From assembly GCA_016874795.1 (NCBI GenBank), contig VGTG01000040.1, positions 1 to 40,445 of the forward strand: DNA of 40,445 nt, given 5' to 3'. How positions within the stretch are numbered: the first letter of the stretch is position 1; the number at the start of each line of letters is the position of its first letter. This document shows positions 2,881 to 30,292 of the stretch, one piece after another. Origin of the DNA: Deltaproteobacteria bacterium. GTDB lineage: Bacteria > Desulfobacterota > Binatia > UBA12015. The notes beneath the pieces are model-generated. The model made no database searches, was not told where the DNA came from, and saw nothing but the letters and a program-made list of their open reading frames with translations. The position numbers were made by a program, and so were the translations under genes.

Positions 2881-2948
2881 CGTACTACTTCGCAGCCGTG
2901 TCGCCGGCCGCCGGCACACCGATCGGTCTCGCTCGAGGAAGCTTGCAC

Positions 2949-6691: not shown

Positions 6692-9084
6692 GCGGCTCGC
6701 TCGCGCCGAAGCGCGCGCTTCAGGGCATTCGCGTGGTCGAATGCGGCGAAGGCGTGTCGGCGCCGTTTTGCGCTCGCGTCCTCGCCGATCTCGGCGCCGA
6801 GGTCTGGAAGGTGGAGCCGCCGGACGGCGACGTGTCGCGCACCTGGGGACCGTTTCCGGGCGGTGCACGTGATCCCGAGAGCAGCGCCGACTTCGCCCAT
6901 CTGAACGCGGGAAAGAAGAGCGTACGTCTCACGGGCGAAGCGCGCGAGGATGGCGCGACGGTCGCGCGCCTGGTCGAAACGGCCGACGTCGTCGTGACGA
7001 ACCTCCCGGCGGGGGCGCGTGAGCGAGTCGGCCTCGACGTCCCGACGATCGAGCGTGCGCACCCGGGGCTCGTGGTGCTCCAGCTGAGCGCCTACGGCGC
7101 CTCGGGGCCCTGGGCCGAATCGCCGGGCCAGGGCGTCAACGTTTGCGCCGTCGCCGCGATCAGCGTCATCCTCGGCGAGCCCGGGAGGACGCCGCTCTCG
7201 TTTCCGCCGGATCTGCCGGGCCTGCAAGCGGGGCTGCACGGTGCGGCGGCCGTCTTGACCGCGCTTCTCGGACGCAGGACGAGCCGTTCGGGACGCCGCA
7301 TCGACGTCGCGGAAACGGACGTGCTCGCCTACTACGCCGGCGGGATGTCGCTCTTCATCCTCGGGTCCGGCGGCGCTTGGATGCGGCGCGGCTTCGAGCG
7401 CCACGGCGGGATCTATCCGTCGGGGTTCTACCCGTGCGGCGACGGCTTCGTCTTCATCGCGACGCAGACGCGCGCGCAGTGGGCGGGCTTCCTGCGGCTC
7501 ATGGGCGATCCCGAGTGGGCGCACGAGGATCCGGTCCTCCAGGACGGCGTCGCCATCGGCTGGAAGCGCGCGGAGGAAGTCGATCTCCACTTCATTCCGT
7601 GGCTGCTCGATCACACGCGTGCCGAGCTGACGGAGATGGCGCGCGCCGCGGACCTCGTGCTCGGACCGATCAACGGCCCGGACGACGTCCTGGCGAGCCG
7701 CCATCTCGAGGAGCGCGGCTTCTGGGCGCACGCGCGCCTCGGCGGCTCGCGCGTTCGCCTTCCGGGGATGGGCTATCGGCTCTCTGCGACGCCCGCGGCC
7801 CTCGGCGAAGCGCCCCGCCTCGGCGAGCACGCTGCCGTCGACCTGCCGGAGCCTCGCCGGCGCGAAGCGACCACGAACGGCGCCGGGCAGGGATCGCGGC
7901 GGCCGCTCGCCGGCTACCGCGCGATCGAGTTCGGCTTCAATTGGGCAGGGCCGATGGTCGGACAGATCCTCGCCGACATGGGGATGGAGGTGATCAAGGT
8001 CGAGACCGCCGGGCGTCTCGATTTCATGCGGCACTGGAAGCACGCGCGCCGCTTCTTCCACAACGCGAACCGCGGCAAGCTGTCCGTTTCGATCGACGTC
8101 AAGAAGAAGGATGGGCGCGAGCTCGTCCGCGCTCTCGTGGCCAAGTCCGACCTCGTCTTCGACAACTTCGCGGCCGGCGTCATGGAGCGGCTCGGGCTCG
8201 GTTACGAGGACCTGCGCGCGGTGAAGCCGGACATCGTCGCGCTTTCGATGGCGATGGCGGGACAGACGGGTCCGCTTCGTCACCTGCGCGGGTTCGCGAC
8301 GATCGCGACGGGGTTCGCGGGCCTCGAGGCGCAGGTCGGCTATCCCGACACCGGCCCGACGGGGCTGCCGGTCATCGGGCTCGGCGACGCGAACGCGGCG
8401 ATCCAGGGCGTGGTCGCCGCCCTCGCAGCACTCTGGCACCGCGAAGAGACGGGCGAGGGCCAGCGTATCGACCTCTCCCAGGTCGAAGCGGCGACGGCGC
8501 TCGTCGCGCACTCCCTCGCGCTCCGGCAGCTCGATCCCGACGCCTCGTTCGTTCCCCGCGGCAACGAGCACGAGAGCATGGCGCCGCACGGGATCTATCC
8601 CGCCGCCGGCGAGGACCGCTGGATCGCCCTCGCGATCGGCAGCGACGCCGAGTGGGCCGCGCTCGCCTGCGCTCTCGGGGAGCCGGCGTGGGCGACCCGG
8701 GCTTCGCTCGCCACGGCTCCCGGGAGGTGTGCGGAGAGGCAGGCCATCGACGCGGAGCTCTCGCGATGGACCGCGCGGCACGACCGCGACGAGCTCGTCG
8801 ACCGGCTTCGCCGCGGCGGCCTCGCAGCCTCGCCCGTGCTCGCGATCGACGAGCTCCAGACGTGGCCGCAATTCGTCGCGCGCGGTCTCGTGCGAAGCAC
8901 GCCGAGCTTCGACGGTGGTAAGGAGCTGGTCTATCGCACCCCGTGGCAGCTCGCAGGCGAAGCGGAGCCGCCGAGCGGCTCGTCGCCTCGGCTGGGGGAG
9001 CACAACGACTACGTCCTCGGAAAGCTCCTGGGGCTCGAGCCCGAGCGCTTCGCCGAGCTCGTCGGTAGCGAGGTGATCCATTGA
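6688..9084 (+). CDS. Fused tandem class III CoA-transferase (two CaiB/BaiF domains)
   Basis: 798 residues, about twice the usual 400, made of two consecutive CaiB/BaiF domains. Domain 1 (about 1-400) starts GIRVVECGEGVSAPFCARVL; domain 2 (about 405-798) starts GYRAIEFGFNWAGPMVGQIL. Class III enzymes move CoA between acids through an aspartyl-CoA intermediate. At that position domain 1 has RIDVAETD (Asp) and domain 2 has RIDLSQVEA (Glu), so the two halves may not be equivalent. I use TTG 6688, overlapping the P450 stop as TTGA; the next in-frame start, GTG 6733, would remove the first strand. The following ligase starts with the same TTGA overlap, supporting this choice. It probably activates a pathway acid (inference). 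Confidence 0.9.
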   Translation: MSGSLAPKRALQGIRVVECGEGVSAPFCARVLADLGAEVWKVEPPDGDVSRTWGPFPGGARDPESSADFAHLNAGKKSVRLTGEAREDGATVARLVETADVVVTNLPAGARERVGLDVPTIERAHPGLVVLQLSAYGASGPWAESPGQGVNVCAVAAISVILGEPGRTPLSFPPDLPGLQAGLHGAAAVLTALLGRRTSRSGRRIDVAETDVLAYYAGGMSLFILGSGGAWMRRGFERHGGIYPSGFYPCGDGFVFIATQTRAQWAGFLRLMGDPEWAHEDPVLQDGVAIGWKRAEEVDLHFIPWLLDHTRAELTEMARAADLVLGPINGPDDVLASRHLEERGFWAHARLGGSRVRLPGMGYRLSATPAALGEAPRLGEHAAVDLPEPRRREATTNGAGQGSRRPLAGYRAIEFGFNWAGPMVGQILADMGMEVIKVETAGRLDFMRHWKHARRFFHNANRGKLSVSIDVKKKDGRELVRALVAKSDLVFDNFAAGVMERLGLGYEDLRAVKPDIVALSMAMAGQTGPLRHLRGFATIATGFAGLEAQVGYPDTGPTGLPVIGLGDANAAIQGVVAALAALWHREETGEGQRIDLSQVEAATALVAHSLALRQLDPDASFVPRGNEHESMAPHGIYPAAGEDRWIALAIGSDAEWAALACALGEPAWATRASLATAPGRCAERQAIDAELSRWTARHDRDELVDRLRRGGLAASPVLAIDELQTWPQFVARGLVRSTPSFDGGKELVYRTPWQLAGEAEPPSGSSPRLGEHNDYVLGKLLGLEPERFAELVGSEVIH

Positions 9085-10754
9085 CTGCGCCGGAGCTGCC
9101 GCAGTTCTCGCCGGAGTACCGCGAGCGCTTCGTCTCGCGAGGCCTCTGGCTCGATCGAACCCTGCACGACTACTTCGCCGAGGCCGTCGCCGCGGCGCCG
9201 TCGCAGGTCGCGATCGTCGAGGGCGACCGGCGCGTCACGTTCGCCGAATGGGACGACCTCGCGCGCCGCGCTGCAGCGGGCCTCGTGCGGCTCGGCCTCC
9301 GCAAGGGCGACGTCGTCACGGTGCAGCTGCCGAACTGGCTCGAGATGTGCGTCGTGCAGATCGCGCTGTCGCGCATCGGCGCGATCATCCAGCCGATGCA
9401 CACCGTCTACCGCGAGCGCGAGATGGCTTCGATGCTCGAGTTCTGCAACTCGCGCGCCGTGATCGTCCCCGAGGAGCACGCGGGCTTCGCGCACGCGGCG
9501 GCTGCCTGCGCTCTGCGCGGGCAGCTCCCCGACCTCGCGCACGTGATCGTCGCGCGCGGCGAGTGCGCGGGGGCGGTGCCCTGGAGCGAGATCGCCGCAA
9601 GCGACGCCGGACTCGAAGCGTACGAGCGCGCCCATCCGGCGCACGCGGACGACGTCTTCTACCTGAACTTCACCTCCGGGACGGAGGGGGCGCCGAAGGG
9701 GTTCCTGCACACGCACAACACCCTTCTCTCGGTGCTGAAGCGCTTCGCCGAAATGCAGGCGCAAGCCGACCCGTCTTCCGCCAGCGACGTGATCCTCGCC
9801 AACAGCCCGATGACGCATTCCTTCGGCCACCTGACGACCTACCAGGTGCTCCTCCGGAAGGTGCGCATGGTCCTCGCCGCGCGCTTCTCGCCCGCGGAGA
9901 CGCTGCGGCTCGTCGCCCGCGAGCGGGTCACCGCGATCTCGGGGACGCCGGCACACCTGATCAGCTTGCTGCAGCACCCGAGCTTCCCGGAGACCGACAC
10001 GACGTCGATCAAGAGCGTCGGCGTGGGCGGCGCGGCGTGCCCGCCGCAGCTCATGGCGGACATCGAGAGGCACTTCGGGGTGCGCGTCGGCAACATGTAC
10101 GGAATGGGCGAGAACATCGTCCACACGCGGACCCTCCCGAGCGACGCGCCCGACGTGGTGCGCGAAACGGTGGGCTTGCCGGTGCCGGGTGCCGAGCTCG
10201 AGATCTTCGCCGACGATCACGCGACCGTGCTGCCCCGCGGCTCGGTCGGCGAGATCGCGTTCCGCGGCCCGACGCTCTTCCTCGCCTACTACCGAAGCCC
10301 TTCGCTGACGCGCGCCACCCGCAACGACGACGGCTGGTTCTTCACGGGCGACCTGGGCTTCGTCGACGACCGCGGCTACCTGCACATCGCCGGCCGCAAG
10401 AAGGAGCAGATCAATCGCGGCGGGACGAAGATCCACCCGAAGGAGATCGAGGACTTGCTTCATTCCCATCCGAGTGTCGCACGCGCCGCCGTCGTCGGGA
10501 TGCCGGACGATCGACTCGGTGAGCGCGTGTGCGCCTACGTCGAGCTCGTGCCGGGCGCGGGACTGTCGCTCGAGGAGGCGCGCACCTTTCTCGAGTCGAA
10601 GCGCGTCATGAAGTACAAGCTGCCCGAACGACTGGAAGTCGCCCGCGAGCTCCCGCAGACGCCGACCGGCAAGATCCAGAAGGGCCCGCTCCTCGAGGAC
10701 ATCGCGAGGAAGCTCGAGCGCGAAGCCGCGTCACTCGGCGGAGGCCGAGAGTGA
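9081..10754 (+). CDS. AMP-dependent acyl-CoA ligase (class I adenylate-forming), copy 1
   Basis: 557-residue cytosolic ligase that adenylates a carboxylic acid and forms its CoA thioester. The ATP loop FTSGTEGAPKGFLHTHN is near residue 200, the hinge GWFFTGDLGFVDDRGYLHIA near 420, and the catalytic lysine is K531 in PTGKIQKG. It resembles cyclohexanecarboxylate- and fatty-acid-CoA ligases. The start is TTG 9081 in a TTGA overlap with the previous gene; the N-terminal sequence then has normal family length. Having both a CoA-transferase and a ligase suggests the pathway activates more than one acid (inference). Confidence 0.92.
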   Translation: MTAPELPQFSPEYRERFVSRGLWLDRTLHDYFAEAVAAAPSQVAIVEGDRRVTFAEWDDLARRAAAGLVRLGLRKGDVVTVQLPNWLEMCVVQIALSRIGAIIQPMHTVYREREMASMLEFCNSRAVIVPEEHAGFAHAAAACALRGQLPDLAHVIVARGECAGAVPWSEIAASDAGLEAYERAHPAHADDVFYLNFTSGTEGAPKGFLHTHNTLLSVLKRFAEMQAQADPSSASDVILANSPMTHSFGHLTTYQVLLRKVRMVLAARFSPAETLRLVARERVTAISGTPAHLISLLQHPSFPETDTTSIKSVGVGGAACPPQLMADIERHFGVRVGNMYGMGENIVHTRTLPSDAPDVVRETVGLPVPGAELEIFADDHATVLPRGSVGEIAFRGPTLFLAYYRSPSLTRATRNDDGWFFTGDLGFVDDRGYLHIAGRKKEQINRGGTKIHPKEIEDLLHSHPSVARAAVVGMPDDRLGERVCAYVELVPGAGLSLEEARTFLESKRVMKYKLPERLEVARELPQTPTGKIQKGPLLEDIARKLEREAASLGGGRE

Positions 10755-12707: not shown

Positions 12708-13256
12708 ATGGCGGAAGAGAAGGACTCGTCGTACTGGATCGTGGAGCAGCAGCTCGCGCAGATCGACCCCGCGCTCGTCGACAAGTGGGGCGATCCGAAC
12801 AAGCATCCGGAGACGCAGCTCTCGAAGGAGGAGCAGCGCCAGATCCTCGAGGCGGGCCGCGAGGTCTTCATCTCGCACCTCACCAAGGAAGGCTTTCCGA
12901 TGGTGACGGTGCACGTCTACTGCCTCATCGAGGGCGAGCTCTGGAGCACGAGCGTCAAGGGGCGCGTCAAGGCGAGCGCCTTCAAGCGCGACCCGCGGAC
13001 GGCTCTCTGCATCTCGTCGAGCGGGCTCACCCTGCCATTCGGGGGCGGCATGACGATCAAGGCGCGCGCGGAGGTGATCGAGGACCGCGCCGTCGTGGAG
13101 CGCGTCTGCGCCGAGCACGGCCGGCGCTACTACACGAGCCCGAAGGCGCAGGAGCTCTTCGCGGGGACGCTCTTCACACCGAACCGGGTCGCCCTCAAGT
13201 TCGCCATCGACTCCATCGTGAGCTGGAAGAACATCGGGATGAAGTCGGAGGCCTGA
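12708..13256 (+). CDS. Pyridoxamine-5'-phosphate-oxidase-like (PPOX split-barrel) flavoprotein 1
   Basis: 182-residue small protein with the PPOX split beta-barrel pattern: a conserved strand FISHLTKEGFPMVTVHVY, then GELWSTSVKGRVKASAFKRD, then LCISSSG. Such proteins bind FMN, F420 or heme and act as small reductases or oxidases; the ligand cannot be told here. ATG 12708 follows a GAAGGAG site. A second PPOX protein (18201) is in the same operon, not a close copy. Placed directly before the flavin reductase at 13261. Confidence 0.78.
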   Translation: MAEEKDSSYWIVEQQLAQIDPALVDKWGDPNKHPETQLSKEEQRQILEAGREVFISHLTKEGFPMVTVHVYCLIEGELWSTSVKGRVKASAFKRDPRTALCISSSGLTLPFGGGMTIKARAEVIEDRAVVERVCAEHGRRYYTSPKAQELFAGTLFTPNRVALKFAIDSIVSWKNIGMKSEA

Positions 13257-13260
13257 CCGC

Positions 13261-15204
13261 GTGAGCGCGGCCGAGCACCTCTTTCGTCCTCTCCAGGTCG
13301 GCCCGATGCGGGTGCCGAACCGGATCGTCGAGACGACGTACTCGATCAACTCGGGTCGCGCCGACGGGCTGCCGGATGCGCCCTTCATCGAGCATCACCT
13401 GCGTCGAGCCCGCGGCGGCGCGGGCTGGATCGGCAACGAGACGTGGCTTCTCCCGACGCCGCTGCCGCCCGGTCGGGCCGACGAGATCCTCCCCGGCACG
13501 GGGGCGGTGCGGTTCGCGATCTACGACCATCCGGAGTTCGTCCCCCGCGTGCGCACGTTCACCGGCGCCGTGCACGCCGCCGGGGCCGTCGCGGTGATGC
13601 AGCTCACCCACCTGCAGTCGCTGATGTGTCCCTCGCCGGTGACGATGGCGCTCAACGCGGACACGATCCCGCACGCGCTCGAGGAAGAGGAGATCGAGCG
13701 CATCCTCCAGACCTACGCGATCGCCGCCGAGCGCTTTCGCGACGCCGGCGCCGACGCAATCGAGATCCACTGCGCGCACGAGACGCTGCCGCAGTGGTTC
13801 CTTTCCCCGGCGACGAACCATCGCAACGATCGGTGGGGGGGCTCGGAGGAGAACCGCATCCGCTTCGTGGTCGAGGCGGTGCGCTTCGCTCGCTCGCGCG
13901 TGTCGCGCGACGTCGCGATCGGGCTTCGGATCTGCGCCGACGAGCATCGCGAGGACGGCTACGACCTCGCCGCCATGCGACGCATGGCGGCGGCGATCTG
14001 TGCCGCAGCCGACATCGACTATCTGAGCGTCGACGTCGGATCGACCTGGGGCCGGCCGAGCTACGTTCCGCCGGTGCACGTCCCGGTCGCCGGCTTCGCT
14101 ACGTACGCGGCGGCGATCCGCGAGGTGGTTCCCGTCCCCGTCGTGTACGCCGGGCGGGTGAACGACCCGGAAGTCGCGGCCTCACTCGTCGCGAGCGGGC
14201 GTGTCGATCTCGTCGGCATGACGCGCGCCCTCCTCGCCGATCCCGAGATGCCGCGGAAGCTCCGCGAAGGGCGCGCGCACGAGATCCGGAAGTGCATCGC
14301 CTGCAACACCTGCATCGGCAAGGTCGTGCACGCCGAGGTGAAGACGCCGCTCTGCGCCGTCAACCCGGTCGTCGGCCACGAGCTCGATTGGAAGGAGGAG
14401 CCGGCCGCGGCGCGCAAGCGGGTCCTCGTCGCCGGGGGCGGGCCCGCGGGTCTGGAGGCGGCGCGTGTCGCCGCGGAGCGCGGGCACGAGGTGATCCTCT
14501 GCGAAGCCTCCGGGGAGCTCGGCGGGATGATGCGTCTCGCTGCGGCGACGCCGGGCCGAAGCGCGTTTCTCGATTTTCCCGTGTTCCAGGAGGGCGCGCT
14601 CGCTCGCCTCGGCGTCGAGGTCCGGAAGGAGAAGCGGCTGACTGCCGCGGAGGTCGCGACGCTCCGGCCCGACGCGGTGATCGTCGCGACCGGCGGCGTT
14701 CCGCGACGGAGTCCTCTCACGGGCGCGAACGTCGTCGACTTCGCACGGGTGCTGCGCGGCGAGGCCGAGGTGGGCGACCACGTCGTCATCCTCTCCGAGG
14801 ACGACCACATGATCACGCCCGGCGTCGCCGACTACCTCGCGGCGCAGGGGAAGCGCGTCGAGATCGCACACAAGTGGCTGATGCCGGCTTCGCAGGTCGA
14901 TCGCTACACGCAGGGCGAGGTCTTCCACCGGCTCTACTCTGGCGGAGTCGTGATCCATCCATCGACGCGCGTGCGTGCCTTCGCGGAGCGCCGCGTCCGC
15001 ACCTACAACGCGCACACCGGAAGGGAAGGCGCGATCGACGACGTCGACACGGTCGTCGTCTGCGTCGGTGCCGAAGCGGACGACGCGCTCTACCACGAGC
15101 TCGAGGGCACGGTCCCCGAGCTCTACCGGATCGGCTCCGCATTCGCGCCGCGCTCGATCGCCGACGCGACACAGCACGGCGCGAGCGTCGCTCGGCTGCT
15201 CTAG
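13261..15204 (+). CDS. Old-Yellow-Enzyme family FMN/4Fe-4S/FAD oxidoreductase (2,4-dienoyl-CoA reductase/TMADH type)
   Basis: 647 residues with the full three-part build of FadH, BaiCD/BaiH and trimethylamine dehydrogenase. Residues 1-340 are an FMN TIM barrel (HCAHETLPQWFLSPATNHRN; ENRIRFV). The 4Fe-4S site is C345-x2-C348-x2-C351-x13-C365, closer in spacing to TMADH than to E. coli FadH. An NAD(P)/FAD pair of Rossmann domains begins at VLVAGGGPAGLEAARVAAERG. Expected role: reduction of a conjugated dienoyl- or enone-type intermediate, as after oxidative cleavage of a polyene. The start GTG 13261 is five bases after the PPOX stop. The exact substrate is unknown. Confidence 0.88.
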   Translation: MSAAEHLFRPLQVGPMRVPNRIVETTYSINSGRADGLPDAPFIEHHLRRARGGAGWIGNETWLLPTPLPPGRADEILPGTGAVRFAIYDHPEFVPRVRTFTGAVHAAGAVAVMQLTHLQSLMCPSPVTMALNADTIPHALEEEEIERILQTYAIAAERFRDAGADAIEIHCAHETLPQWFLSPATNHRNDRWGGSEENRIRFVVEAVRFARSRVSRDVAIGLRICADEHREDGYDLAAMRRMAAAICAAADIDYLSVDVGSTWGRPSYVPPVHVPVAGFATYAAAIREVVPVPVVYAGRVNDPEVAASLVASGRVDLVGMTRALLADPEMPRKLREGRAHEIRKCIACNTCIGKVVHAEVKTPLCAVNPVVGHELDWKEEPAAARKRVLVAGGGPAGLEAARVAAERGHEVILCEASGELGGMMRLAAATPGRSAFLDFPVFQEGALARLGVEVRKEKRLTAAEVATLRPDAVIVATGGVPRRSPLTGANVVDFARVLRGEAEVGDHVVILSEDDHMITPGVADYLAAQGKRVEIAHKWLMPASQVDRYTQGEVFHRLYSGGVVIHPSTRVRAFAERRVRTYNAHTGREGAIDDVDTVVVCVGAEADDALYHELEGTVPELYRIGSAFAPRSIADATQHGASVARLL

Positions 15205-15222: not shown

Positions 15223-16404
15223 ATGGACTTCCGCGACTCGAGCGAGGACGCCGCCTTCCGGGCCGAGCTGCGCGCCTGGCTTGCGCGAAGCCTCGCCGAG
15301 GCGGGAGGGCTCCCCTCGGACCCGTCGGCGGCGGCCCTCCATTCCCGCGCCTGGCAGCGCCGTCTCGCCGAGGCGGGCTACGTCGGCCTCGCCTGGCCGA
15401 GGGAATACGGCGGCCGGGCGGCACCTCCGACGCAGCAGGTGATCTTCGCCGAGGAGTGCGCGCGTGCGGGGGCGCCGCCGCTGATCAACGGAATCGCTCT
15501 CGGCATCCTCGCACCGGCGCTGATCCAGCACGGCAACGAAGCGCAGAAGCGCCGCTTCCTGCCGCGCATCCTCTTCGCCGAAGACCTCTGGTGCCAGGGC
15601 TTCTCGGAGCCGGGTGCGGGCTCGGACCTGTCCTCGCTGCAGACGCGCGCCGTCGTCGACGGGGACTTCCTCATCGTGAACGGACAGAAGGTGTGGACGA
15701 GCCTGGCCCCCATCGCGGACTGGTGCTTCCTCCTCGTGCGCACCGGCGAAGAGCGCACGGGGCCGCGCGGCATCACCTACGTCTTGATGCAGATGTCGAG
15801 CGCCGGCGTGCGCGTTCGACCGATCCGTCAGATCACCGGCAAGAGCCACTTCAGCGAGATCTTCCTCGAGGACGTGCGCATTCCGCTCGCGAACGTCGTC
15901 GGCGAGCTGCACGGCGGCTGGAGCGTGGCGCGCGCGACGCTCGCCGCGGAGCGGAGCGGGCTCTCCGGAGTGGTCGAGCTCGAGCGCTCGTTGACGGCCT
16001 TGCGCGGTCTCGCGGCGGCGCGCGGCGCCCTCGGAGACCCGGTCGTGCGCCAGCGTCTCGCCGGTCTTTGGGTCGAGAAGGAAGCGCTCAAATGCACCGG
16101 CTACCGCGTCCTGACGAAGCAGCTCCGCGGCGAGGCGCTTGGACCGGAGGCCGCGATCGGCAAGCTCGCCGCTTCGGAGTTCCGCCGCGCTGTGATGGAC
16201 ACGGCGCTCGAGCTCCAGGGCCCCTACGCGATGCTCGGCCGCGGCAATCCGCGTGCGCTCGAGCGCGGGCGCTGGCAGGGACTCTACCTCGACGCGCGCG
16301 CCTACACGATCGGCGGCGGCACGTCCGAGATCATGCGCAACATCATCGCGGAGCGCGCGCTGGGTCTTCCCCGCAGCGTTCCACTAACGGGAGGATTTCG
16401 ATGA
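15223..16404 (+). CDS. Acyl-CoA dehydrogenase
   Basis: 393-residue FAD acyl-CoA dehydrogenase. Seen in order: N-terminal helical domain (YVGLAWPREYGG), FAD/substrate segment GFSEPGAGSDLSSLQTRA, beta-domain VNGQKVWTS, and C-terminal helix TSEIMRNIIAERALGLPR. At the position of the medium-chain catalytic Glu (YEGT) there is Gly365 (GGGT), as in many mycobacterial FadE and steroid-type dehydrogenases, so the base must sit elsewhere in this chain or in a partner. No second subunit is adjacent. ATG 15223 follows GGGGAGGAGG, a strong ribosome-binding site. It overlaps the next gene by ATGA. Confidence 0.92.
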   Translation: MDFRDSSEDAAFRAELRAWLARSLAEAGGLPSDPSAAALHSRAWQRRLAEAGYVGLAWPREYGGRAAPPTQQVIFAEECARAGAPPLINGIALGILAPALIQHGNEAQKRRFLPRILFAEDLWCQGFSEPGAGSDLSSLQTRAVVDGDFLIVNGQKVWTSLAPIADWCFLLVRTGEERTGPRGITYVLMQMSSAGVRVRPIRQITGKSHFSEIFLEDVRIPLANVVGELHGGWSVARATLAAERSGLSGVVELERSLTALRGLAAARGALGDPVVRQRLAGLWVEKEALKCTGYRVLTKQLRGEALGPEAAIGKLAASEFRRAVMDTALELQGPYAMLGRGNPRALERGRWQGLYLDARAYTIGGGTSEIMRNIIAERALGLPRSVPLTGGFR

Positions 16405-17180
16405 CGACGGCTCTCGAGAGGCGGTTCTCGCTCACCGGCAAGGTCGCCCTGGTATCCGGCGCGGGGCAGGGGATCGGTCGCGGCATCGCGCTCTGCCTCG
16501 CGGAAGCGGGTGCGGCGGTCGCGGTACAGGATCTGGAGGGCGCTGCGGCGCGCCGGGTGGCAGACGAGATCCGGGCGCTGGGAGGCTCCGCCGCCGCTTC
16601 GGCGGGCGACATGACCCGGCCGGAGACGATCGACGGGTTCCTCGACACGGCGCAGAGGGAGCTCGGCCGGCCGGACATCCTCGTCAACAACGCCGGCATC
16701 TACCCGTTCTCCAGCTTCCTGGAGATTCCGCTCGAGGAGTGGGACCGCGTGCTCGCGCTGAACCTGCGCTCCGCGTTCCTCGCGACGCAGAAGGCCGGCC
16801 GCATCATGGCCGACGGCGGCCGCGGCGGCCGCATCGTCAACGTCGCGTCGATCCAGGCGCTGCGGCCCTCCGGACCGGGCGTCGCGGCGTACAACATGAG
16901 CAAGGCCGGCGTCGTGATGCTGACCAAGTCGGCGGCGCTCGAGCTCGCGGCGTTCGGTATCGGCGTGAACGCGGTCGCACCCGGGATCGTCGCGACGCCG
17001 GGAACGAAGACGATCATCGACACCAACCAGCTCGGCGACCCGAAGGACCTGGTCCCTCTCGGCGGGCGCTGGGCGACGACCGACGACGTGGCGGACGCCG
17101 TCCTCTATCTCGTGAGCCCCGCCGGCGCTTACGTCACGGGCGAGACGATCGTGATCGACGGCGGCTACCTGCTGAAGTGA
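16401..17180 (+). CDS. Short-chain dehydrogenase/reductase (SDR-3)
   Basis: 259-residue classical SDR with SGAGQGIG at 19-26, NNAG at 96-99 and catalytic S150, Y164 and K168 (YNMSK). The C-terminus GETIVIDGGY is standard. Acidic D44 after the second strand suggests NAD(H). It overlaps the acyl-CoA dehydrogenase stop by four bases (ATGA), so the two are translationally coupled. Its pattern around the active-site loop (NNAGIYP, then EEWDRV) is shared with SDR-1, which suggests a duplicated pair acting on related alcohols (inference). Confidence 0.9.
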   Translation: MTTALERRFSLTGKVALVSGAGQGIGRGIALCLAEAGAAVAVQDLEGAAARRVADEIRALGGSAAASAGDMTRPETIDGFLDTAQRELGRPDILVNNAGIYPFSSFLEIPLEEWDRVLALNLRSAFLATQKAGRIMADGGRGGRIVNVASIQALRPSGPGVAAYNMSKAGVVMLTKSAALELAAFGIGVNAVAPGIVATPGTKTIIDTNQLGDPKDLVPLGGRWATTDDVADAVLYLVSPAGAYVTGETIVIDGGYLLK

Positions 17181-17190
17181 GAGGAAGCAC

Positions 17191-18180
17191 ATGATTCATC
17201 CCGACGACGAGTATCGGCACGCTTGCCCCGACGAGATCCGCCACCTGCTCTGGGGCGACACGCTCTGGGTCAGCGTCGTCGATCGCGAAGCCAACGTCTT
17301 TGGCGTCAATCACTTCCACCTGACCAACAAGGGCTACGGCCGCTTCGAGGCCCTCTACGTGATCGACGGCGTGCAGCAGCTCTACGGCAACAAGTTCCCG
17401 CTCGTCGTCGCACCCGACAAGGGTCCGTGGAGCGACGGCCGGCTCTCGTACGAGGTCGTGAAGCCGCTCGAGGAGATCCGTATCCAGCTCGACGGCCCGC
17501 GCTACGGCTTCGACCTGACGTTCCGCGGGCGCTTCCCCGTGTTCGACTACCACGACAGCGTGCACGGGAATCCGCTCGGTCGCTTCCACACCTACGGCGG
17601 CCACTTCGAGCAGGGCATGCTCTGCACGGGCTCGTTCGAGATCCGCGGCGGGCCGTGCAAGGGAGAGACCCGCCGGATCCACAGCTTCGCGCACCGCGAC
17701 CACTCCTGGTCGACGCGCTTCGCCGACGAGCCGTCCTGGGAGACGGAGCACGGAGATCATCCGGCGCACTTCTGGCCGTCGATCCAGCTCCCCGACAAGC
17801 ACATCAATGCCTTCGGGATCATGGAGGTCGGCGGCATGGGCCTGCCTCCGGGCGAGCGACCGGTCGGCGGCTTCTGCTCGACGGCCGAGGGCTCGCGCGC
17901 GATCCTCGACGCTTCCGCGGAGATCCTCACGGAAGACGACCGGCGTGTCGCCGCGGCATTCCGTTACCGGATCGTGCTGCCCGACCGGCAGGTCGTGCAC
18001 GTCCGCACCGGCCGCAAGCACGGCCAGGTGAAGCTCTGGGACCGCGGCGAGAACGACCTCGAGAATCGCCTCGACTGCTACGAGCCGTTCTTCGACTTCG
18101 AGGTCGAGGAGACGGGCGAGCGCGGCTACGGCGTCGCCGAGTACTCGATCCAGCCGCCGCGCCCGCGCTGGCTCGTGTGA
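17191..18180 (+). CDS. DUF7064/DUF7065-like protein, copy 1 (CrtC/AttH lipocalin-type fold suspected)
   Basis: 329 residues with no signal peptide or membrane segment. It is related along its whole length to the product of 21751: both share DDEY near the start, RYGFDLT, the block FAHRDHSW, HFWPS, DKH-NAFG, and FFDFEVEETGERGYG near the end. I recognise this as the two-domain DUF7064/DUF7065 group, recalled from memory rather than searched, whose HRDHSW block resembles lipocalin-like hydratases/cyclases of the CrtC/AttH type. If that holds, it would act on a hydrophobic substrate by hydration or isomerisation. That function is a guess; the paralogy is certain. ATG 17191 follows GAGGAAG. Confidence 0.7.
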   Translation: MIHPDDEYRHACPDEIRHLLWGDTLWVSVVDREANVFGVNHFHLTNKGYGRFEALYVIDGVQQLYGNKFPLVVAPDKGPWSDGRLSYEVVKPLEEIRIQLDGPRYGFDLTFRGRFPVFDYHDSVHGNPLGRFHTYGGHFEQGMLCTGSFEIRGGPCKGETRRIHSFAHRDHSWSTRFADEPSWETEHGDHPAHFWPSIQLPDKHINAFGIMEVGGMGLPPGERPVGGFCSTAEGSRAILDASAEILTEDDRRVAAAFRYRIVLPDRQVVHVRTGRKHGQVKLWDRGENDLENRLDCYEPFFDFEVEETGERGYGVAEYSIQPPRPRWLV

Positions 18181-18200
18181 CGTCGCGAGGGGAGGACGCC

Positions 18201-18659
18201 GTGAGCGAGCAGGAAGCCTGGGAAGACCTGAACGCCTTTCGCATGAGCGATGCCGACGCCTGGGAGGTCGTCGCGCGCGCCGCCGGCTGCACGGTGACCT
18301 TCGCGCGAAAGGACGGCCACACGATCGGCGTCTGGGTGTCGCACGCGGTGCTCGACGGCGATCTCTACGTCAGCACGACGGCGAATCGCCCGAAGACGCG
18401 GGCATGGCTGCGCGACCCGCGGATGTCGGCGTGCTTCGCGGTTCCCGGGGTCGGCTCGGTGACGGTCGTCGGGAGGATCGCGCTCGGCGAGGAGCCGCGG
18501 CTCCGCCGCCGCTTCCTCGAGGCGCTGTGCGATCGTCTCGCCATCCCGGCGGAGGCACGTGCTTCGTGGATCGGCCACATGGACACGGAGGGGCGGGTGA
18601 TCGGCAAGGTCGCGGTCGAGAACCTGATCACCTTCGACGAGCGGAAGCTCGAGTTCTGA
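18201..18659 (+). CDS. PPOX-type flavoprotein 2
   Basis: 152-residue PPOX split-barrel protein: CTVTFARKDGHTIGVWVSHA, then TTANRPKTRAWLRDPRMSAC, then SVTVVGRIAL, which is the usual strand order of the small FMN/F420 group. GTG 18201 has GGGGAGG eight bases before it. GTG 18177, in a GTGA overlap with the previous stop, is in the same frame and would add eight residues. Role in the pathway is unknown; a flavin-linked reduction of an unsaturated intermediate is possible. Confidence 0.78.
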   Translation: MSEQEAWEDLNAFRMSDADAWEVVARAAGCTVTFARKDGHTIGVWVSHAVLDGDLYVSTTANRPKTRAWLRDPRMSACFAVPGVGSVTVVGRIALGEEPRLRRRFLEALCDRLAIPAEARASWIGHMDTEGRVIGKVAVENLITFDERKLEF

Positions 18660-18676
18660 GCGAGAGGACCGGGGTC

Positions 18677-19654
18677 GTGAGCGAGATGGGAGACGCGCTG
18701 GCGCGGTTCATCGCCGAGGCGACCGGTGGGCCGGCGGAGGTGAGCGACATCGCCCGCATCCCCGGCGGGTTCTCGTACGAGACCTGGACGGCGCGGGCGA
18801 AGTGGTGTTCCGGCGAGAGCCGGGTCGTCGTTCGCCGCGAGCCGCGCGGCGGCGTCCTCGAGCCGTACGACGCGACGAAGGAGTACCGCATCCTGAAAGC
18901 CCTCGCCGGCACGACGGTGCCGGTGCCGCGCGCTCTCTGGCTCGACGAGACGGGTCGAGTCCTCGGCAGACGCTTCTACGTCATGGAGTTCGTCGAGGGC
19001 GAAGTCCCGCTGCCGTGGGACGAGTCGATCTCGGACGAAGTGCGCCGCGAGATGCACTGCCAGTTCACCGACCTCCTCGCCGAGCTCCACACCGTGGAGT
19101 GGCATGGGCTCAGCCTGGATTTCCTCGGCGTTCCCGCGGATCCCGCCGACCCCGCCGCGCTCGAGCTCGACCGCTGTCGCGAGGTGCTCGACCGCGTCGC
19201 GCTCCGCCCGTATCCGTTGCTGCAAGAGATCCTCGCCTGGCTCGACGAGCGCCGGCCGCGGGCGCCGCGCCTGTCGCTCGTCCACGACGACTACCGGATG
19301 GGAAACTTCGTCTGGCGCGACGGGCGGATCGTCGCTCTTCTCGACTGGGAGCGCGCCTTCGTCGGCGACCCGATGACGGATGTCGCGTTCACGCGTCTCG
19401 AGAACCTCGCCGGCTGGTGCAGCGTCGCCGGCGAAATGGCCGCTCGCTACACCGCGCGATCGGGGATCGAGGTCGGCGAGGAGCGAGTGTCGTACTACTC
19501 CGTGCTGGAGCAATTGAAGGCGACGCTCGTCGGGCTGACCGGTCTACGTGCCTTCGCGGACGCGCGCACCAGCGATCTTCGTCTCGTGCAGATCGGCGAG
19601 TTCGCCGAGCGGGCGATCGCGCCGCTCGCGGCCGGGATCGGAGTCGGACGATGA
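18677..19654 (+). CDS. APH/ACAD10-type phosphotransferase (possible 4-hydroxyacyl-CoA kinase, LvaA-like)
   Basis: 325-residue protein-kinase-like phosphotransferase of the APH family. The catalytic loop is HDDYRMGN (H203, D205, N210) and the metal-binding DWE motif is at 223-225; YVMEFVEGE marks the hinge. The N-terminal GGFSYETWTAR is the nucleotide loop. Related enzymes include the kinase part of human ACAD10/11 and Pseudomonas LvaA, which phosphorylate 4-hydroxyacyl-CoA so it can enter beta-oxidation. The directly coupled small gene downstream resembles the LvaA helper, supporting this over antibiotic resistance. Start GTG 18677; ATG 18686 is an alternative. Confidence 0.82.
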   Translation: MSEMGDALARFIAEATGGPAEVSDIARIPGGFSYETWTARAKWCSGESRVVVRREPRGGVLEPYDATKEYRILKALAGTTVPVPRALWLDETGRVLGRRFYVMEFVEGEVPLPWDESISDEVRREMHCQFTDLLAELHTVEWHGLSLDFLGVPADPADPAALELDRCREVLDRVALRPYPLLQEILAWLDERRPRAPRLSLVHDDYRMGNFVWRDGRIVALLDWERAFVGDPMTDVAFTRLENLAGWCSVAGEMAARYTARSGIEVGEERVSYYSVLEQLKATLVGLTGLRAFADARTSDLRLVQIGEFAERAIAPLAAGIGVGR

Positions 19655-20145
19655 GTGTGCGGACTCTGGCGGCGGAAGCGTTGCTGGCGGGAATGGCGCG
19701 CTGCGTTCGCGAGTCGATCCTTCCCGCGCTCGCCGATCCGCACGCGCGTACGCAGGCCGAAGTGCTGGCCGTGCTCCTCGACGGTCTTCCGGCCGCGCTC
19801 GACGAGTCGAGCCGTGCGGCGGCGCGCGCGGACGGCGACGCGGCGCGCGCCGTCCTGGCGGAGCTGGGCGAACCCGCGAAGCCGCCGCCCGATCCGTCCG
19901 CGACCCTGGCGGATGTCGTCGCCGACACCCATGCGTTGCACGCGGCTCTGGCCGGTCTCGCCGCACGCACGCGCGCCGCCGGCGCGAATCAGACGCTCGA
20001 GCGACTGCAGCGCTATTTCCTCGCGAGTGCGCTCGCCGAGCAAGCGACGACTGCCGAGCAGGCGGGCGATTTCGCGAAGCTCAGCGCGAAGGAAGATGCG
20101 GCGCGCCGCGGAGGCGGCGGCGAGGCGAGCGGAGGAGGCGACTGA
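19651..20145 (+). CDS. DUF6285/LvaB-like small helper protein (tentative)
   Basis: 164-residue, mostly helical, Ala-rich soluble protein. The opening LAAEALLAGMARCVRESILP followed by ALADPH resembles the start of DUF6285 proteins (a helical segment ending in LPAL), which are encoded next to APH-type kinases and include LvaB, needed for LvaA activity. It overlaps the kinase gene by ATGA and the following dehydrogenase by one base, so it is translationally coupled. The C-terminal tail (GGGGEASGGGD) is low complexity. The family call is by partial resemblance and context. Confidence 0.55.
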   Translation: MSVRTLAAEALLAGMARCVRESILPALADPHARTQAEVLAVLLDGLPAALDESSRAAARADGDAARAVLAELGEPAKPPPDPSATLADVVADTHALHAALAGLAARTRAAGANQTLERLQRYFLASALAEQATTAEQAGDFAKLSAKEDAARRGGGGEASGGGD

Positions 20146-21206
20146 TGGCGACGATGCGCGGAGCGGTCCTGGTCGAGCCCTACTCGATCCGGCTGGAGGA
20201 GTTTCCCAAGCCCGAGATCGACGACGACGGCGCGGTCGTCATCCGAACCGAGGGGGTCGGAATCTGTGGCAGCAACCTGCACTGGTGGACCGGCGGCGGT
20301 CCGGCGACCCGGCTGATGACGTTTCCGATGATCGGCGCTGGCGGACACGAGTTCGCCGGCGTCGTCGAAGCCGTCGGAGCGCGCGTGACGCGCGTGAAGC
20401 CGGGCGACCGGGTGACGATCGACCAGTTCGAGAGCCGCTCGTGCGGCGCCTGCTCGCAGTGCACGACGGGTCTCTTCACACAGTGCGAGAGCATCGCCGC
20501 GCCGGGCCTCGAAGGGTTCTTCGACTATCTCAAGTTCACCGAGCGGGGCCTGTATCGGATCCCTGACGGCATCGAGACGCACGTTGCCGCGCTGGTGCAG
20601 CCCTACGCGTGCTCGGTGAGTGCCGTCCGCCGCGCCGGGCTAGTCGGCGGCGAGAAGGTGGTGGTGCTCGGCGCCGGCGTGCTCGGACTTTGCGCCGCGG
20701 CCGCGGCCAAGGCGCTCGGCGCGGAGCGGGTCATCGTCACGGCGAAGTACGAAGCCCAGAAGAAGCTCGCGAAGCGCTTCGGCGCCGACGTCGTCGTCGA
20801 GAGCGACGCCGCGGACCTCGTCGACCGCTTGCTCGCCGAGACCGCCGGACGGGGTGCCGACCTCGTCGTCGAGACCGTCGGCAGCCACGCCCCGACTCTC
20901 CGTCAGGCGCTCGAGATCGTCCGCCCGGCGAGCAAGGTCGTCGTGCTCGGGCTCTGGGACGACCTCGTGCCGATCGACTCGTGGCAGGCGATCCTGAAGG
21001 ACGCGACGGTCCTCTTCTGCCTCAACCACGGCGTGATCGGCCACAAAGCGGACTACGAGCTCTGCCTCGACTGGATGGCGAGCGGCAAGGTGCCGGCGCA
21101 GGAGCTCGTGACGCACGTCCTGCCGTTCGCGGAGCTGGAGGAGGCCTTTCGCCTCGCCGCCGACAAGCGGAGCGGGTGCGTCAAGGTCATCGCCCGACCG
21201 CACTGA
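20145..21206 (+). CDS. Zinc-dependent alcohol dehydrogenase (MDR family)
   Basis: 353-residue Zn alcohol dehydrogenase. The catalytic zinc ligands are C41 (GICGSN) and H68-E69 (GGHEF). Structural zinc cysteines are C100, C103, C106 and C114. The Rossmann loop VVVLGAGVLGL follows. The usual CGSD carries Asn at the fourth position (CGSN), a mild variation. It would oxidise an alcohol or reduce an aldehyde, fitting a pathway that produces aldehydes by oxidative cleavage. ATG 20145 shares one base with the previous stop (TGATG). Confidence 0.92.
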   Translation: MATMRGAVLVEPYSIRLEEFPKPEIDDDGAVVIRTEGVGICGSNLHWWTGGGPATRLMTFPMIGAGGHEFAGVVEAVGARVTRVKPGDRVTIDQFESRSCGACSQCTTGLFTQCESIAAPGLEGFFDYLKFTERGLYRIPDGIETHVAALVQPYACSVSAVRRAGLVGGEKVVVLGAGVLGLCAAAAAKALGAERVIVTAKYEAQKKLAKRFGADVVVESDAADLVDRLLAETAGRGADLVVETVGSHAPTLRQALEIVRPASKVVVLGLWDDLVPIDSWQAILKDATVLFCLNHGVIGHKADYELCLDWMASGKVPAQELVTHVLPFAELEEAFRLAADKRSGCVKVIARPH

Positions 21207-21212
21207 CGAGCC

Positions 21213-21737
21213 ATGTCCGACGCGCTCTCGATTCTCGCGCCGCACTTCTTCCAGGTGGCGTACGTCGTCCCGGATCTCGCTCGCGCGGAGGCGTGGTTCG
21301 AGCGCGTGCTCGGTGTCAACCACTTCGAGCGCTTGGAAGGCGTCGTGCTCGGCGACGGCTGCCGGCACCGCGGTGCCGCTTCGAACGGGGTGCTCGACCT
21401 TTCGCTCGGCTACCTCGGGGACACGCAGCTCGAGCTCGTGCGGCCCGCCGGCGGCGTGACGCTGCACGGCGAGTTCCTCGAAACGGGCGGCCGCGGCTTG
21501 CACCACGTCGCCTTCGCCGTTCCCGATTTCGCAGCGGCGACGGCGCGGCTCACGGCGGAGCTCGGTCCCCCCGCCGCGGACGGCGTCCTCGCCGGCGGCA
21601 TGCGCGTCGAGTTCGCGTACTACGAGTGCACCGAGGCCGGGGCTTCGTTCGTCGAGGTCCTCGGCTTCGACGAAGCCGCACGCGCCTTCATGTCGGATTT
21701 GAAGGAGAAGAGCCGGCGCGCGACGGCGCGCCGCTGA
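21213..21737 (+). CDS. VOC (glyoxalase/bleomycin-resistance/dioxygenase) superfamily protein
   Basis: 174 residues with two beta-alpha-beta-beta-beta units. The first is FFQVAYVVPDLARAEAWFER; the second is GRGLHHVAFAVPDFAAATAR, ending YECTEAGASFVEVLG. Metal-binding candidates are H92-like residues in LHHVAF and E166-like residues in FVEV; the first module lacks the usual histidine at its start (FFQVAY), giving a partial metal site. Members act as epimerases, dioxygenases or isomerases, including methylmalonyl-CoA epimerase. The substrate is unknown. Confidence 0.82.
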   Translation: MSDALSILAPHFFQVAYVVPDLARAEAWFERVLGVNHFERLEGVVLGDGCRHRGAASNGVLDLSLGYLGDTQLELVRPAGGVTLHGEFLETGGRGLHHVAFAVPDFAAATARLTAELGPPAADGVLAGGMRVEFAYYECTEAGASFVEVLGFDEAARAFMSDLKEKSRRATARR

Positions 21738-21750
21738 GGAGGACGCCCGC

Positions 21751-22758
21751 TTGGTCGATCCACGAGACGAGTACCTGCACCACGCACCGGACGTCGAGAA
21801 GGGACTCTGGAGCGACAACTTCTGGCTCTCGATCTGCGACCGCGAAGCGGACGTGTTCGGGGTGAACCACGTGCACGCGAGCACGAACCGCGGCTACGCG
21901 CGCTTCAGCACGATGCTCGTGATCGACGGCGTGCCGATGCCGTGGGCGAACAAGGTCGCATTGCCGGAGGACGTCCGCACGGGTCCGTTCGCCCGGCTCG
22001 GCGAGGGGCACATGACCTACACGGTCGTCAAGCCCCTCGAGGAGATCCGCTTGACCTACGACGGGCCGCGCTACGGATTCGACTTGACCTATCGCGGCCG
22101 CTTCCCCGTCTTCGACTACCGCGACTGCCTCGGCGGCAACCCGCTCTCGGGCGCGATGTACTACGGCGGCCACTACGAGCAGGGCCTTCACTGCCGCGGC
22201 GAGCTCGAGGTGCGCGGCGGCCCGCGTCCGGGACGGCGCACGATCGACAGCTTCGCGCACCGCGACCATTCGTGGACCTACCGCTTCAGCCGGGAGACGC
22301 CCTGGGAGCTGCCGGCCGTGACCCGGCAGGAGAGCCTCGGGCACTTCTGGCCGTCGGTGCAGCTCGCCGACAAGCACCTGAACGCCTTCGGCTGGATGAA
22401 CCCGGACTTCGCCGCGCCGATCCCGGGCGCTCCGAAGGCCGGCGGCTTCCTCTCGGATGCGCGCGGCAGCCGCCCGATCCGCGACTGCACCTGCGAGGTG
22501 CGTCTCGAGGACGACGGGCGGACGGCGATGAGCTTCCGCTACCGGTTCACTCTGCCCGACGGCGAGGTGGTGCACGTCCGCAGCGGACGGAAGTACGCGC
22601 AGACCGTGAACGGGCTCATGCGCGGGGAGAACGACGCCGAGTGCACGATGGACTGCTACGAGGCGTTCTTCGATTTCGAGGTCGAGGAGACCGGCGAGCG
22701 CGGCTACGGCTGCGCCGAGTACTCGATCATGCCTCCCTTTCCCCGCTGGCGGTACTGA
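21751..22758 (+). CDS. DUF7064/DUF7065-like protein, copy 2
   Basis: 335 residues, a full-length paralogue of the product of 17191. Shared blocks include DREA-VFGVNH, VVKPLEEIR, RYGFDLT-RGRFPVFDY, FAHRDHSW, HFWPS-QL-DKH-NAFG and FFDFEVEETGERGYG. No signal peptide. I use TTG 21751 because the resulting start (M-V-D-P-R-D-E-Y) lines up with MIHPDDEY of copy 1 and GAGGAGG lies nine bases upstream. Keeping two copies in one operon suggests action on two related substrates or a heteromer (inference). Confidence 0.7.
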   Translation: MVDPRDEYLHHAPDVEKGLWSDNFWLSICDREADVFGVNHVHASTNRGYARFSTMLVIDGVPMPWANKVALPEDVRTGPFARLGEGHMTYTVVKPLEEIRLTYDGPRYGFDLTYRGRFPVFDYRDCLGGNPLSGAMYYGGHYEQGLHCRGELEVRGGPRPGRRTIDSFAHRDHSWTYRFSRETPWELPAVTRQESLGHFWPSVQLADKHLNAFGWMNPDFAAPIPGAPKAGGFLSDARGSRPIRDCTCEVRLEDDGRTAMSFRYRFTLPDGEVVHVRSGRKYAQTVNGLMRGENDAECTMDCYEAFFDFEVEETGERGYGCAEYSIMPPFPRWRY

Positions 22759-22759
22759 G

Positions 22760-23680
22760 ATGAGCGACGACACGGAGCCGATTCTCGCGATCGACGTGAT
22801 GAACCACCCGATCGAGGCGAAGCGGAGCCTCGGCGGCAATCCCTTCGAGTTCGAAGAGTTCAAGATCATGCTCGGCACGACCTTCAAGGCGGCCGCTCCG
22901 GCCGGCGGCGGGAAGGGCGCGGCGCGCGAGCGCGCCGCTTCGATCCTCGCCGGGCACGAGTCGGTCGGGGAGCTCGTCCGCGACATGGACGCGCTCGGCT
23001 ACGAGTCGATCGTCATCACCGCGACGAAGATGTGGTCCTACCGCTACCACCACCGTCTGATCCTCGACTACTCCGTCGACGACGTCGGCGAGCTCGTCGC
23101 GGAGGCGAAGGGGCGCATCATCGGCGCGGCGAGCTACGACCCGTGGCGCATCGAGGAGAGCCTGCGCGACGTCGAGAAGGGGGTCCGCGAGTACGGCTTC
23201 AAGTACGTCTGGTTCCACCCGCTGTCGTTCGGCATGGCGCCGAACGACCGCCGCTTCTACCCGCTCTACGCGAAGTGCAACGAGCTCGACATCGCGGTCG
23301 GCATGCAGGTGGGGCATTCGGCGGAGGTGCTGCCGTCGGACGTCGGGCGGCCGATGCTCGTCGACGACGTCGCGATCGACTTCCCGAACCTGCGCATCAA
23401 CCTCTCGCACACGGGCTGGCCCTGGATCGACGAGTGGTGCTCGATGCTCTGGCGCCACCCGAACGTGTACGGCGACATCTCCGCGTACTTCCCGAAGAGC
23501 CTCGACGAGCGGCAGGTCCGCTTCATGGACGGCTCGCGCGGCCGCGCAAAGGTGCTCTTCGGCACGAACGGCCTCGGCTTGAAGCCCTGCGTCGAGCAGT
23601 TCCGGGCGCTGCCGATCAAGGACGAGACGAAGCGGCGCGTGCTGCGCGAGAACGCGCGCGAGTTCCTGCGGCTCGGCTGA
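22760..23680 (+). CDS. Amidohydrolase-family (amidohydrolase 2) TIM-barrel protein with altered metal site
   Basis: 306 residues of the amidohydrolase-2 group, which includes decarboxylases and lactone or carbon-carbon hydrolases. Recognisable barrel elements: KYVWFHPLSFG, a His strand VGMQVGHSAEV, RINLSHTGWPW, and the C-terminal LFGTNGLG. Family members normally have D-x-H-x-H at the first strand and FGTD at the end; here these are DVMNHP and FGTN. The metal site is therefore altered, so hydrolase activity is uncertain. ATG 22760 begins one base after the previous stop. Confidence 0.8.
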   Translation: MSDDTEPILAIDVMNHPIEAKRSLGGNPFEFEEFKIMLGTTFKAAAPAGGGKGAARERAASILAGHESVGELVRDMDALGYESIVITATKMWSYRYHHRLILDYSVDDVGELVAEAKGRIIGAASYDPWRIEESLRDVEKGVREYGFKYVWFHPLSFGMAPNDRRFYPLYAKCNELDIAVGMQVGHSAEVLPSDVGRPMLVDDVAIDFPNLRINLSHTGWPWIDEWCSMLWRHPNVYGDISAYFPKSLDERQVRFMDGSRGRAKVLFGTNGLGLKPCVEQFRALPIKDETKRRVLRENAREFLRLG

Positions 23681-23702: not shown

Positions 23703-24431
23703 ATGGGTACGCTCGAGGGAAAGGTCGCGGTCGTCACCGGCGGCGGCTCCGGGATCGGCTTCGCGATCGCGCGGCGCTTCGCCGAGGAGGGCGCGCGGCT
23801 CGTGCTCGTCGGCCGCCGGCGCGAGCGACTGGAACGTGCGGCGGCCGAGATCGGCCGCGGTGCCGCCGGCATCCCGGCCGACGTCGGCGTCGAAGCCGAG
23901 GTGAAGGCGGTCTTCGACCGCTTGGAGCGCGTCGATCTGTTGGTGACGTGTGCAGGGGGCGCCGTCTTCGGGACGATCGACGGCCTTCCGCCCGAGGAGT
24001 GGAAGCGTCTCTTCGAGGGCCGCTTCTTCGGGCAGATCTATGCTTGTCATCACGCCGTCCCGAAGATGCCTGCCGGTGGCGTGATCCTCCTCTGCTCCGG
24101 CATCGCCGCGGCGGCGCACGTGCCCGAGTACAGCGGCGGCTCGGCGCTCTGCGGTGCCGTGAACGCGCTCGGGCGAAATCTCGCGGTCGAGCTCGCGCCG
24201 CGCGGCATCCGCGTGAACGTGATCTCGCCCGGGCTGATCGAAGGGACGGAGATCGAGAACAACCTGGACGGCGAGAAGCTCATGCAGTTCTGGCAGAGCA
24301 CGGTGGATCGCATTCCCGCGAAGCGCGCCGGGCGTCCGGGCGACACGGCGGAAGCGGCACATTTCCTCGCGACCTGCGCGTACGCGAGCGGCATCGTCCT
24401 GGACGTCGACGGAGGGTGGACGGCGGCATGA
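23703..24431 (+). CDS. Atypical SDR lacking the YxxxK catalytic pair (SDR-4)
   Basis: 242 residues with a good SDR fold signature: TGGGSGIG at 12-19, CAGG at 83-86 in place of NNAG, and the C-terminal LDVDGGW. The active-site helix reads EYSGGSALCGAVNAL. Aligning on VNAL-RNLAVELAPRGIRVN puts Gly146 at the catalytic Tyr and Cys150 at the catalytic Lys; S132 remains and Y143 is nearby. It may still bind NAD(P) but probably does not perform standard SDR chemistry, or uses Y143 differently. ATG 23703; overlaps the next gene by ATGA. Confidence 0.85.
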   Translation: MGTLEGKVAVVTGGGSGIGFAIARRFAEEGARLVLVGRRRERLERAAAEIGRGAAGIPADVGVEAEVKAVFDRLERVDLLVTCAGGAVFGTIDGLPPEEWKRLFEGRFFGQIYACHHAVPKMPAGGVILLCSGIAAAAHVPEYSGGSALCGAVNALGRNLAVELAPRGIRVNVISPGLIEGTEIENNLDGEKLMQFWQSTVDRIPAKRAGRPGDTAEAAHFLATCAYASGIVLDVDGGWTAA

Positions 24432-30155: not shown

Positions 30156-30292
30156 GGCGTCTGATGCCACGGGTACGCGAACGGCGCCAGGCCCCGTGTT
30201 GCTCGCGCCGATGGCGCGGCAGAAGGCGATGCTCGCCGTGGCCCCGGCTGGTCCTGCGTCGAGCGATGGGCTACGCCGTCTGCCGACGCAAG

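Follow-up and report, generated by a model that had tools for sequence, protein, structure and literature searches.

Candidate phosphate-eliminating lyases of double-lipocalin type beside a small-molecule kinase in an acyl-CoA operon of a Binatia bacterium

Known kinase-lyase systems and the A and B proteins

Anaerobic cholesterol degradation by Sterolibacterium (S. denitrificans) utilizes a kinase and a lyase partner: 25-hydroxysteroid kinase (25-HSK) phosphorylates the tertiary alcohol of the 25-OH-steroid, and 25-phosphosteroid lyase (25-PSL) then eliminates the phosphate to leave an alkene (PMC7411048, PMC8449060). In M. tuberculosis Rv3168-Rv3169 form an operon that is repressed by Rv3167c, with the Rv3169 family gene adjoining that of an APH-type kinase (PMC5340868); no biochemical function for Rv3169 was found in those papers naming it that were searched. 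The 25-PSL type of enzyme, represented by PDB entries 9fzn, 9g2i and 9g4c, has become known only very recently, and we describe here two proteins, A and B, that would be a variant of it. They are encoded in a 40,445-nucleotide stretch (the window; contig VGTG01000040.1 of assembly GCA_016874795.1) from a bacterium deposited as Deltaproteobacteria and placed by GTDB in the Binatia (UBA12015), and the gene of an APH-family small-molecule kinase lies between them. We propose, at a probability of about 0.6, that A and B are phosphate-eliminating C-O lyases within a module for ATP-dependent dehydration that serves isoprenoid or polycyclic acyl-CoA catabolism.

Protein A (17191..18180, + strand, ATG start) has 329 residues and protein B (21751..22758, + strand, TTG start) has 335; a GAGGA-type ribosome site precedes both open reading frames (ORFs), and their codon-position GC has the pattern of coding DNA. 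The two are 57% identical over their full length (E 2e-129) and share the block FAHRDHSW, which occupies residues 166-173 of A (17686..17709, +) and 168-175 of B (22252..22275, +). The initial annotation of this DNA, made from its letters alone, is thus borne out in describing two ORFs of these lengths with a common FAHRDHSW block as diverged paralogues in one operon, which is a tight one.

Like 25-PSL, A and B combine a double-lipocalin fold predicted over the whole chain with an RDxSWxxR block and a family association with APH-type kinases. Unlike 25-PSL, with which they share only ~16% identity in structural alignment, they have a shorter C-terminal half and form a separate clade, and whereas 25-PSL is the product of a single gene, they are two paralogues in a CoA-ligase operon.

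Fold, family link and the HRDHSW block

The AF2 model of A, built from an alignment that included five remote relatives, is an all-beta structure of two barrels with a mean pLDDT of 91.8 and a pTM of 0.90. Because that alignment held the remote relatives, B was modeled from A and B sequences only, with a pLDDT of 86.9. In Foldseek 25-PSL is the top solved match of both models (E 3.5e-11 for A and 1.2e-12 for B), and it is again the top match in VIA-align (for A, Z 25.9 with 286 aligned residues at 3.1 A; for B, Z 26.3 with 287 aligned residues at 3.0 A). AttH follows for A at Z 24.7, then kievitone hydratase at 23.4 and Diels-Alderases at ~21, with the rest at ~8 or lower; for B the AttH and kievitone hydratase scores are 24.1 and 22.9. 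Fold families outside these listed matches are not counted as excluded by the searches. The double-lipocalin fold of A and B and their placement in the superfamily are both well supported, and the high-confidence models uphold the earlier suggestion of a lipocalin-like fold related to that of CrtC and kievitone hydratase, a comparison made here with the kievitone hydratase structure only.

The assignment to a sequence family is more distant. A is without any match in the Pfam search, and B scores 24.3 bits to DUF7064 over its C-terminal half (E 4e-5; cut-off 24.7) and 14.6 bits to DUF7065 (cut-off 27). Both domains are matched by related Binatia proteins, and no curated cut-off is reached by A or B; "DUF7064/7065-like" is therefore the fitting label for their sequences and plain "DUF7064/7065" too strong. 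No paper naming DUF7064 or DUF7065 was found in a literature search. Significant matches are obtained to the NCBIfam model Rv3169_fam (NF053593), at 45.8 bits for A (E 4e-12) and 39.2 bits for B (E 4e-10), both below its cut-off of 150 bits, and the 25-PSL sequence is a full member of this same family at 391 bits. A mixed profile of A, B and the five remote relatives matches 25-PSL over its full length in the PDB with an E of 2.5e-18, an indirect link of which the one by Rv3169_fam is independent. A and B are relatives of 25-PSL within one superfamily and not its orthologues; in the family tree 25-PSL falls among other proteins from Binatia and gammaproteobacteria, apart from the A+B clade.

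The HRDHSW block of A and B aligns with RDRSW of 25-PSL, and the pattern RDxSWxxR is kept by 25-PSL and by almost every relative. Residues R169, D170, S172, W173 and R176 are invariant in A, as are R171, D172, H173, S174 and W175 in B. Within the aligned region, RDRSW/RNRSW is where the two PDB sequences of 25-PSL differ; the Asn form is 9g4c, a product complex that contains phosphate and desmost-1,4-diene-3-one. It appears that the catalytic Asp of 25-PSL was changed by the depositors of 9g4c, and this Asp aligns with D170 of A and D172 of B. That the His-Arg-Asp-His block forms the active site, as initially supposed, is accordingly plausible, the equivalent Asp being the residue that is Asn in 9g4c.

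A close homolog of 25-PSL itself (410 bits to 25-PSL) is encoded in another Binatia family (locus L164 of genome G020, 7388-9694), where no kinase, acyl-CoA dehydrogenase (ACAD), CoA-ligase, SDR, CaiB, MaoC or OYE gene was detected within the 18 kb of that locus.

The kinase and the weighing of explanations

The kinase encoded between A and B (18686..19654, +; PF01636, E 1.8e-35) has intact HxDxxxxN (HDDYRMGN) and DWE (LLDWE) catalytic motifs, and its relatives of solved structure include 3dxp, the ACAD11 kinase domain 8v3v (E 2.7e-18) and 3ats (E 6e-15), which we take to be Rv3168. It is kept between A and B in every Binatia and Chloroflexota cluster that covers this stretch. In the wider DUF7064 family 40 Binatia loci were taken and the family ORF was recovered in 38; an APH gene, Pfam-confirmed where checked, lies within 1 kb of that ORF in nine of the 38, against a chance expectation estimated at ~0.7% per locus from the 11 APH genes of the 6.27 Mb window genome and a span of ~4 kb. 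Adjacent kinase-lyase pairs are on the same strand in 20 of 22 cases, and kinase and lyase tree distances are correlated (Mantel r 0.81, or 0.69 with near-identical clusters collapsed, p 2e-4). At loci L043 and L044 a 25-PSL-like gene (~140 bits to 25-PSL) starts within 4 bases after the kinase gene; at L044, from a marine gammaproteobacterium, four genes in a row (6559-10972) encode an APH kinase, the 25-PSL-like protein, a carotenoid hydratase of CruF-like type (PF04240) and A.

A phosphate-eliminating lyase acting after a kinase is favored because 25-PSL is the nearest solved structure, Rv3169_fam supplies a sequence link and an APH kinase is adjacent. In the proposed reaction the kinase would phosphorylate a hydroxyl on a large hydrophobic intermediate, most likely a tertiary hydroxyl or one otherwise hard to eliminate, and A, B or both, as soluble enzymes, would hold the phosphoester in a tunnel between the two lipocalin halves, where the Asp of HRDHSW would aid elimination of inorganic phosphate to form a C=C bond. 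The net ATP-dependent dehydration would let the operon's CoA ligase, dehydrogenases and reductases proceed. The presence of two proteins may reflect two successive or stereo- or regio-distinct eliminations, or a heteromer.

The initial annotation had instead suggested new hydratases, cyclases or isomerases, chemistry that the 25-PSL structure, the Rv3169_fam match and the APH kinase make second to a C-O lyase. Of these, an unlikely alternative is that A and B are cofactor-free hydratases or dehydratases that work by acid-base catalysis, like the carotenoid 1,2-hydratase CrtC and kievitone hydratase, with the kinase serving some other step. For both known enzymes the site of action is a prenyl-type C=C bond or a tertiary alcohol, and the fold of kievitone hydratase is that of A and B, with the Z scores given above; the carotenoid cleavage oxygenase (CCD) and TonB receptor genes of the window and the CruF-like hydratase beside A at L044 suggest carotenoid-like substrates. 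CrtC moreover has an essential Asp together with HxW, in a catalytic set of H239, W241, Y266 and D268 (PMC4717167); A and B have DHSW, with HxW present in HRDHSW, and the Y-x-D pair could not be aligned reliably. However, 25-PSL comes out ahead in each of the four structure comparisons, and Rv3169_fam ties A and B to 25-PSL by sequence while no PDB sequence match to kievitone hydratase was found at E<=10. No kinase is involved with kievitone hydratase or CrtC, and if A and B were such enzymes the kinase would be superfluous.

It is less probable again that the kinase and the ACAD of the operon together carry out an elimination of the LvaA/LvaC (ACAD10/11) type on a 4-hydroxyacyl-CoA, to which A and B would be unrelated. 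In those systems too an APH-type kinase makes the hydroxyl a phosphate leaving group, but an enzyme of ACAD fold eliminates it, whereas a lipocalin-fold lyase is proposed here. Kinase and ACAD are an established elimination pair (PMC12440821), and an ACAD is present in the operon. The LvaA-type feature found here is the APH-type kinase with its intact motifs, and 3dxp and ACAD11 are among its nearest solved relatives. Nevertheless, 4x28 and 6wy8, presumably steroid side-chain dehydrogenases, are the closest solved structures to the ACAD of the operon, whose 60 best PDB matches do not include ACAD11. In the wider family it is the DUF7064/7065 gene that the kinase accompanies, often without an ACAD nearby.

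We consider a non-catalytic role improbable, and slightly more so than the preceding explanation: A and B would then be AttH-like lipocalins that carry a hydrophobic intermediate, perhaps presenting it to other enzymes as a heterodimer. AttH is structurally close to both, and the A and B clades travel together with one exception; yet HRDHSW and further polar positions vary little or not at all among the A and B sequences, which is the pattern of an active site and not of a mere hydrophobic pocket. The least probable explanation by our estimate is that A and B are isomerases, cyclases or other enzymes that shape C-C bonds. The Diels-Alderases CghA, Phm7 and Fsa2 have the fold in common with A and B (Z ~20-22) but score below 25-PSL, and they are fungal and biosynthetic, whereas the operon of A and B is a catabolic acyl-CoA operon.

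Several observations weigh against A and B being lyases of the 25-PSL type. AttH and kievitone hydratase lie just 1-3 Z units below 25-PSL. At E<=1 a PDB search with a profile of the A clade alone or of the B clade alone does not reveal 25-PSL, and a PDB sequence search with A alone found nothing; since only the mixed profile finds 25-PSL, the sequence link is made through Rv3169_fam. A and B are ~5 substitutions per site from 25-PSL in the tree, and the Gly that follows RDxSW in other members is Ser/Thr in both. As to the kinase, shared species history is a confounder of the mirror-tree correlation, there is no kinase nearby in 29 of the 38 related Binatia loci, and many gammaproteobacterial A/B genes are not beside one. 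The gene for 25-PSL is itself not adjacent to its own kinase gene (PMC8449060), and adjacency is therefore neither required nor proof. Finally, the proposal leaves a single kinase serving two lyases without explanation.

Operon, distribution and implications

Transcription is from the + strand throughout from the acyl-CoA ligase (AMP-binding; 9081..10754) to an SDR that ends at 24431, with gaps that are short or genes that overlap. A family III CoA-transferase (CaiB; 6022..9084, +), a 1020-residue single ORF with two matched stretches, precedes the ligase. Further downstream are a FadH/OYE-type oxidoreductase (13261..15204, +), whose nearest NCBIfam models are mycofactocin OYE_2 and BaiCD, each matched at a score under its cut-off, the ACAD (15223..16404, +), and an SDR (16401..17180, +) that ends 10 bases upstream of A and is a conserved neighbor. 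Between A and the kinase is a PNPOx/PPOX-class oxidoreductase-like protein (18195..18659, +). The kinase stop is overlapped by the start of a 164-residue protein (19651..20145, +) without a Pfam family match, whose gene was found by tblastn and alignment directly 3' of the kinase in every cluster with coverage among nine distinct clusters; tested as a relative of LvaB (DUF6285), this protein gave no such Pfam match. A Zn-dependent alcohol dehydrogenase (20145..21206, +) and a VOC/glyoxalase-fold protein distantly like methylmalonyl-CoA epimerase (21213..21737, +) lead to B, whose stop codon is 1 base upstream of the ATG of an Amidohydrolase_2 family protein (22760..23680, +); the terminal SDR (23703..24431, +) is a conserved neighbor of B.

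By its gene content this is an acyl-CoA-type catabolic operon, as the earlier assignment of neighbors acting on acyl-CoAs implied. A bulky isoprenoid or polycyclic substrate would fit the ACAD, OYE, CCD and TonB genes together. A steroid-specific cluster, favored by ACAD and OYE, is not accepted, the CCD and TonB genes pointing to carotenoid-like substrates.

The window also contains the CCD gene (RPE65 family; 1322-2809) followed by that of the TonB-dependent receptor (2898-5453), and one or other of these adjoins the conserved operon in some related Binatia clusters. The suggested link of A and B to CCDs is nonetheless weak: a CCD occurs in the window and at two related Binatia loci and is absent from most. 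Two PPOX/PNPOx-class proteins are encoded in the one operon (12708-13256 and 18195-18659), nearest to the F420-type Rv1155 model at scores below cut-off. On the - strand, 27321-30170 encodes a 949-residue protein with Vgb-lyase-like repeats, a carboxypeptidase-regulatory domain and DUF4215 that is probably a surface or secreted protein.

The source genome (6.27 Mb, 360 contigs) has Candidatus Binatia and "Deltaproteobacteria" metagenome-assembled genomes (MAGs) as its nearest named relatives. Among 148 genomes of the Binatia class A is present in eight, and B in seven of those eight. Outside the class, a scan of one genome per species located the A+B pair in two Chloroflexota, one a Thermoflexaceae and one a Dehalococcoidia genome, and in three marine gammaproteobacteria; no plasmid record carrying A was found. 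The order SDR, A, PNPOx, APH kinase, small protein, Zn-dependent alcohol dehydrogenase, VOC, B is kept in Binatia and in a Thermoflexaceae genome, usually continuing with the amidohydrolase and then the SDR, while in one Binatia genome (L035) B and the VOC gene are both absent. A (n=26) and B (n=25) make up two monophyletic sister groups within a joint clade that has a support of 0.998; the duplication is therefore older than the spread of the pair. The question of whether the family occurs mostly outside catabolic contexts, raised by the initial annotation, is answered in the negative for A and B themselves and partly in the affirmative for the wider DUF7064 family, in which most Binatia loci have no catabolic neighbor detected among seven families tested.

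Classification of whole-genome matches gives A:B copies of 5:6, 7:5 and 9:5 in the three gammaproteobacteria, in addition to contig-end fragments. A strict one-to-one occurrence is refuted by these ratios, by 2:1 in the Dehalococcoidia genome and by the A-only Binatia genome. The three gammaproteobacterial MAGs (G148, G149 and G150; loci L037-L061) are related to one another and each encode, within 3-4 Mb, 11-14 full A/B paralogs and 19-24 APH kinases, which is an unusual expansion. Molybdenum-dependent oxidoreductases of the bis-MGD and MoCoBD types adjoin A at L037 (11006-13141) and L040 (7644-9875), recalling the water-dependent hydroxylation of anaerobic sterol degradation; a molybdenum hydroxylase beside A was looked for at L044 and not found.

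The proposal offers a concrete and testable function for a family so far named "domain of unknown function" or "Rv3169 family", one that includes an M. tuberculosis member co-repressed with its kinase neighbor by Rv3167c. More tentatively, kinase and double-lipocalin lyase may constitute a widespread and largely unrecognized ATP-dependent dehydration module for inert alcohols that extends beyond the anaerobic sterol degraders to Binatia, Chloroflexota, marine gammaproteobacteria (with at least 10 A/B copies) and Rv3168-Rv3169 of M. tuberculosis, the A/B pair being a version with two dedicated lyases for CoA-activated isoprenoid or polycyclic substrates. If so, the copy number of A and B would mark genomes equipped to phosphorylate and then eliminate, and this would be a general bacterial route for removing unreactive hydroxyls from terpenoid or steroid-like carbon.

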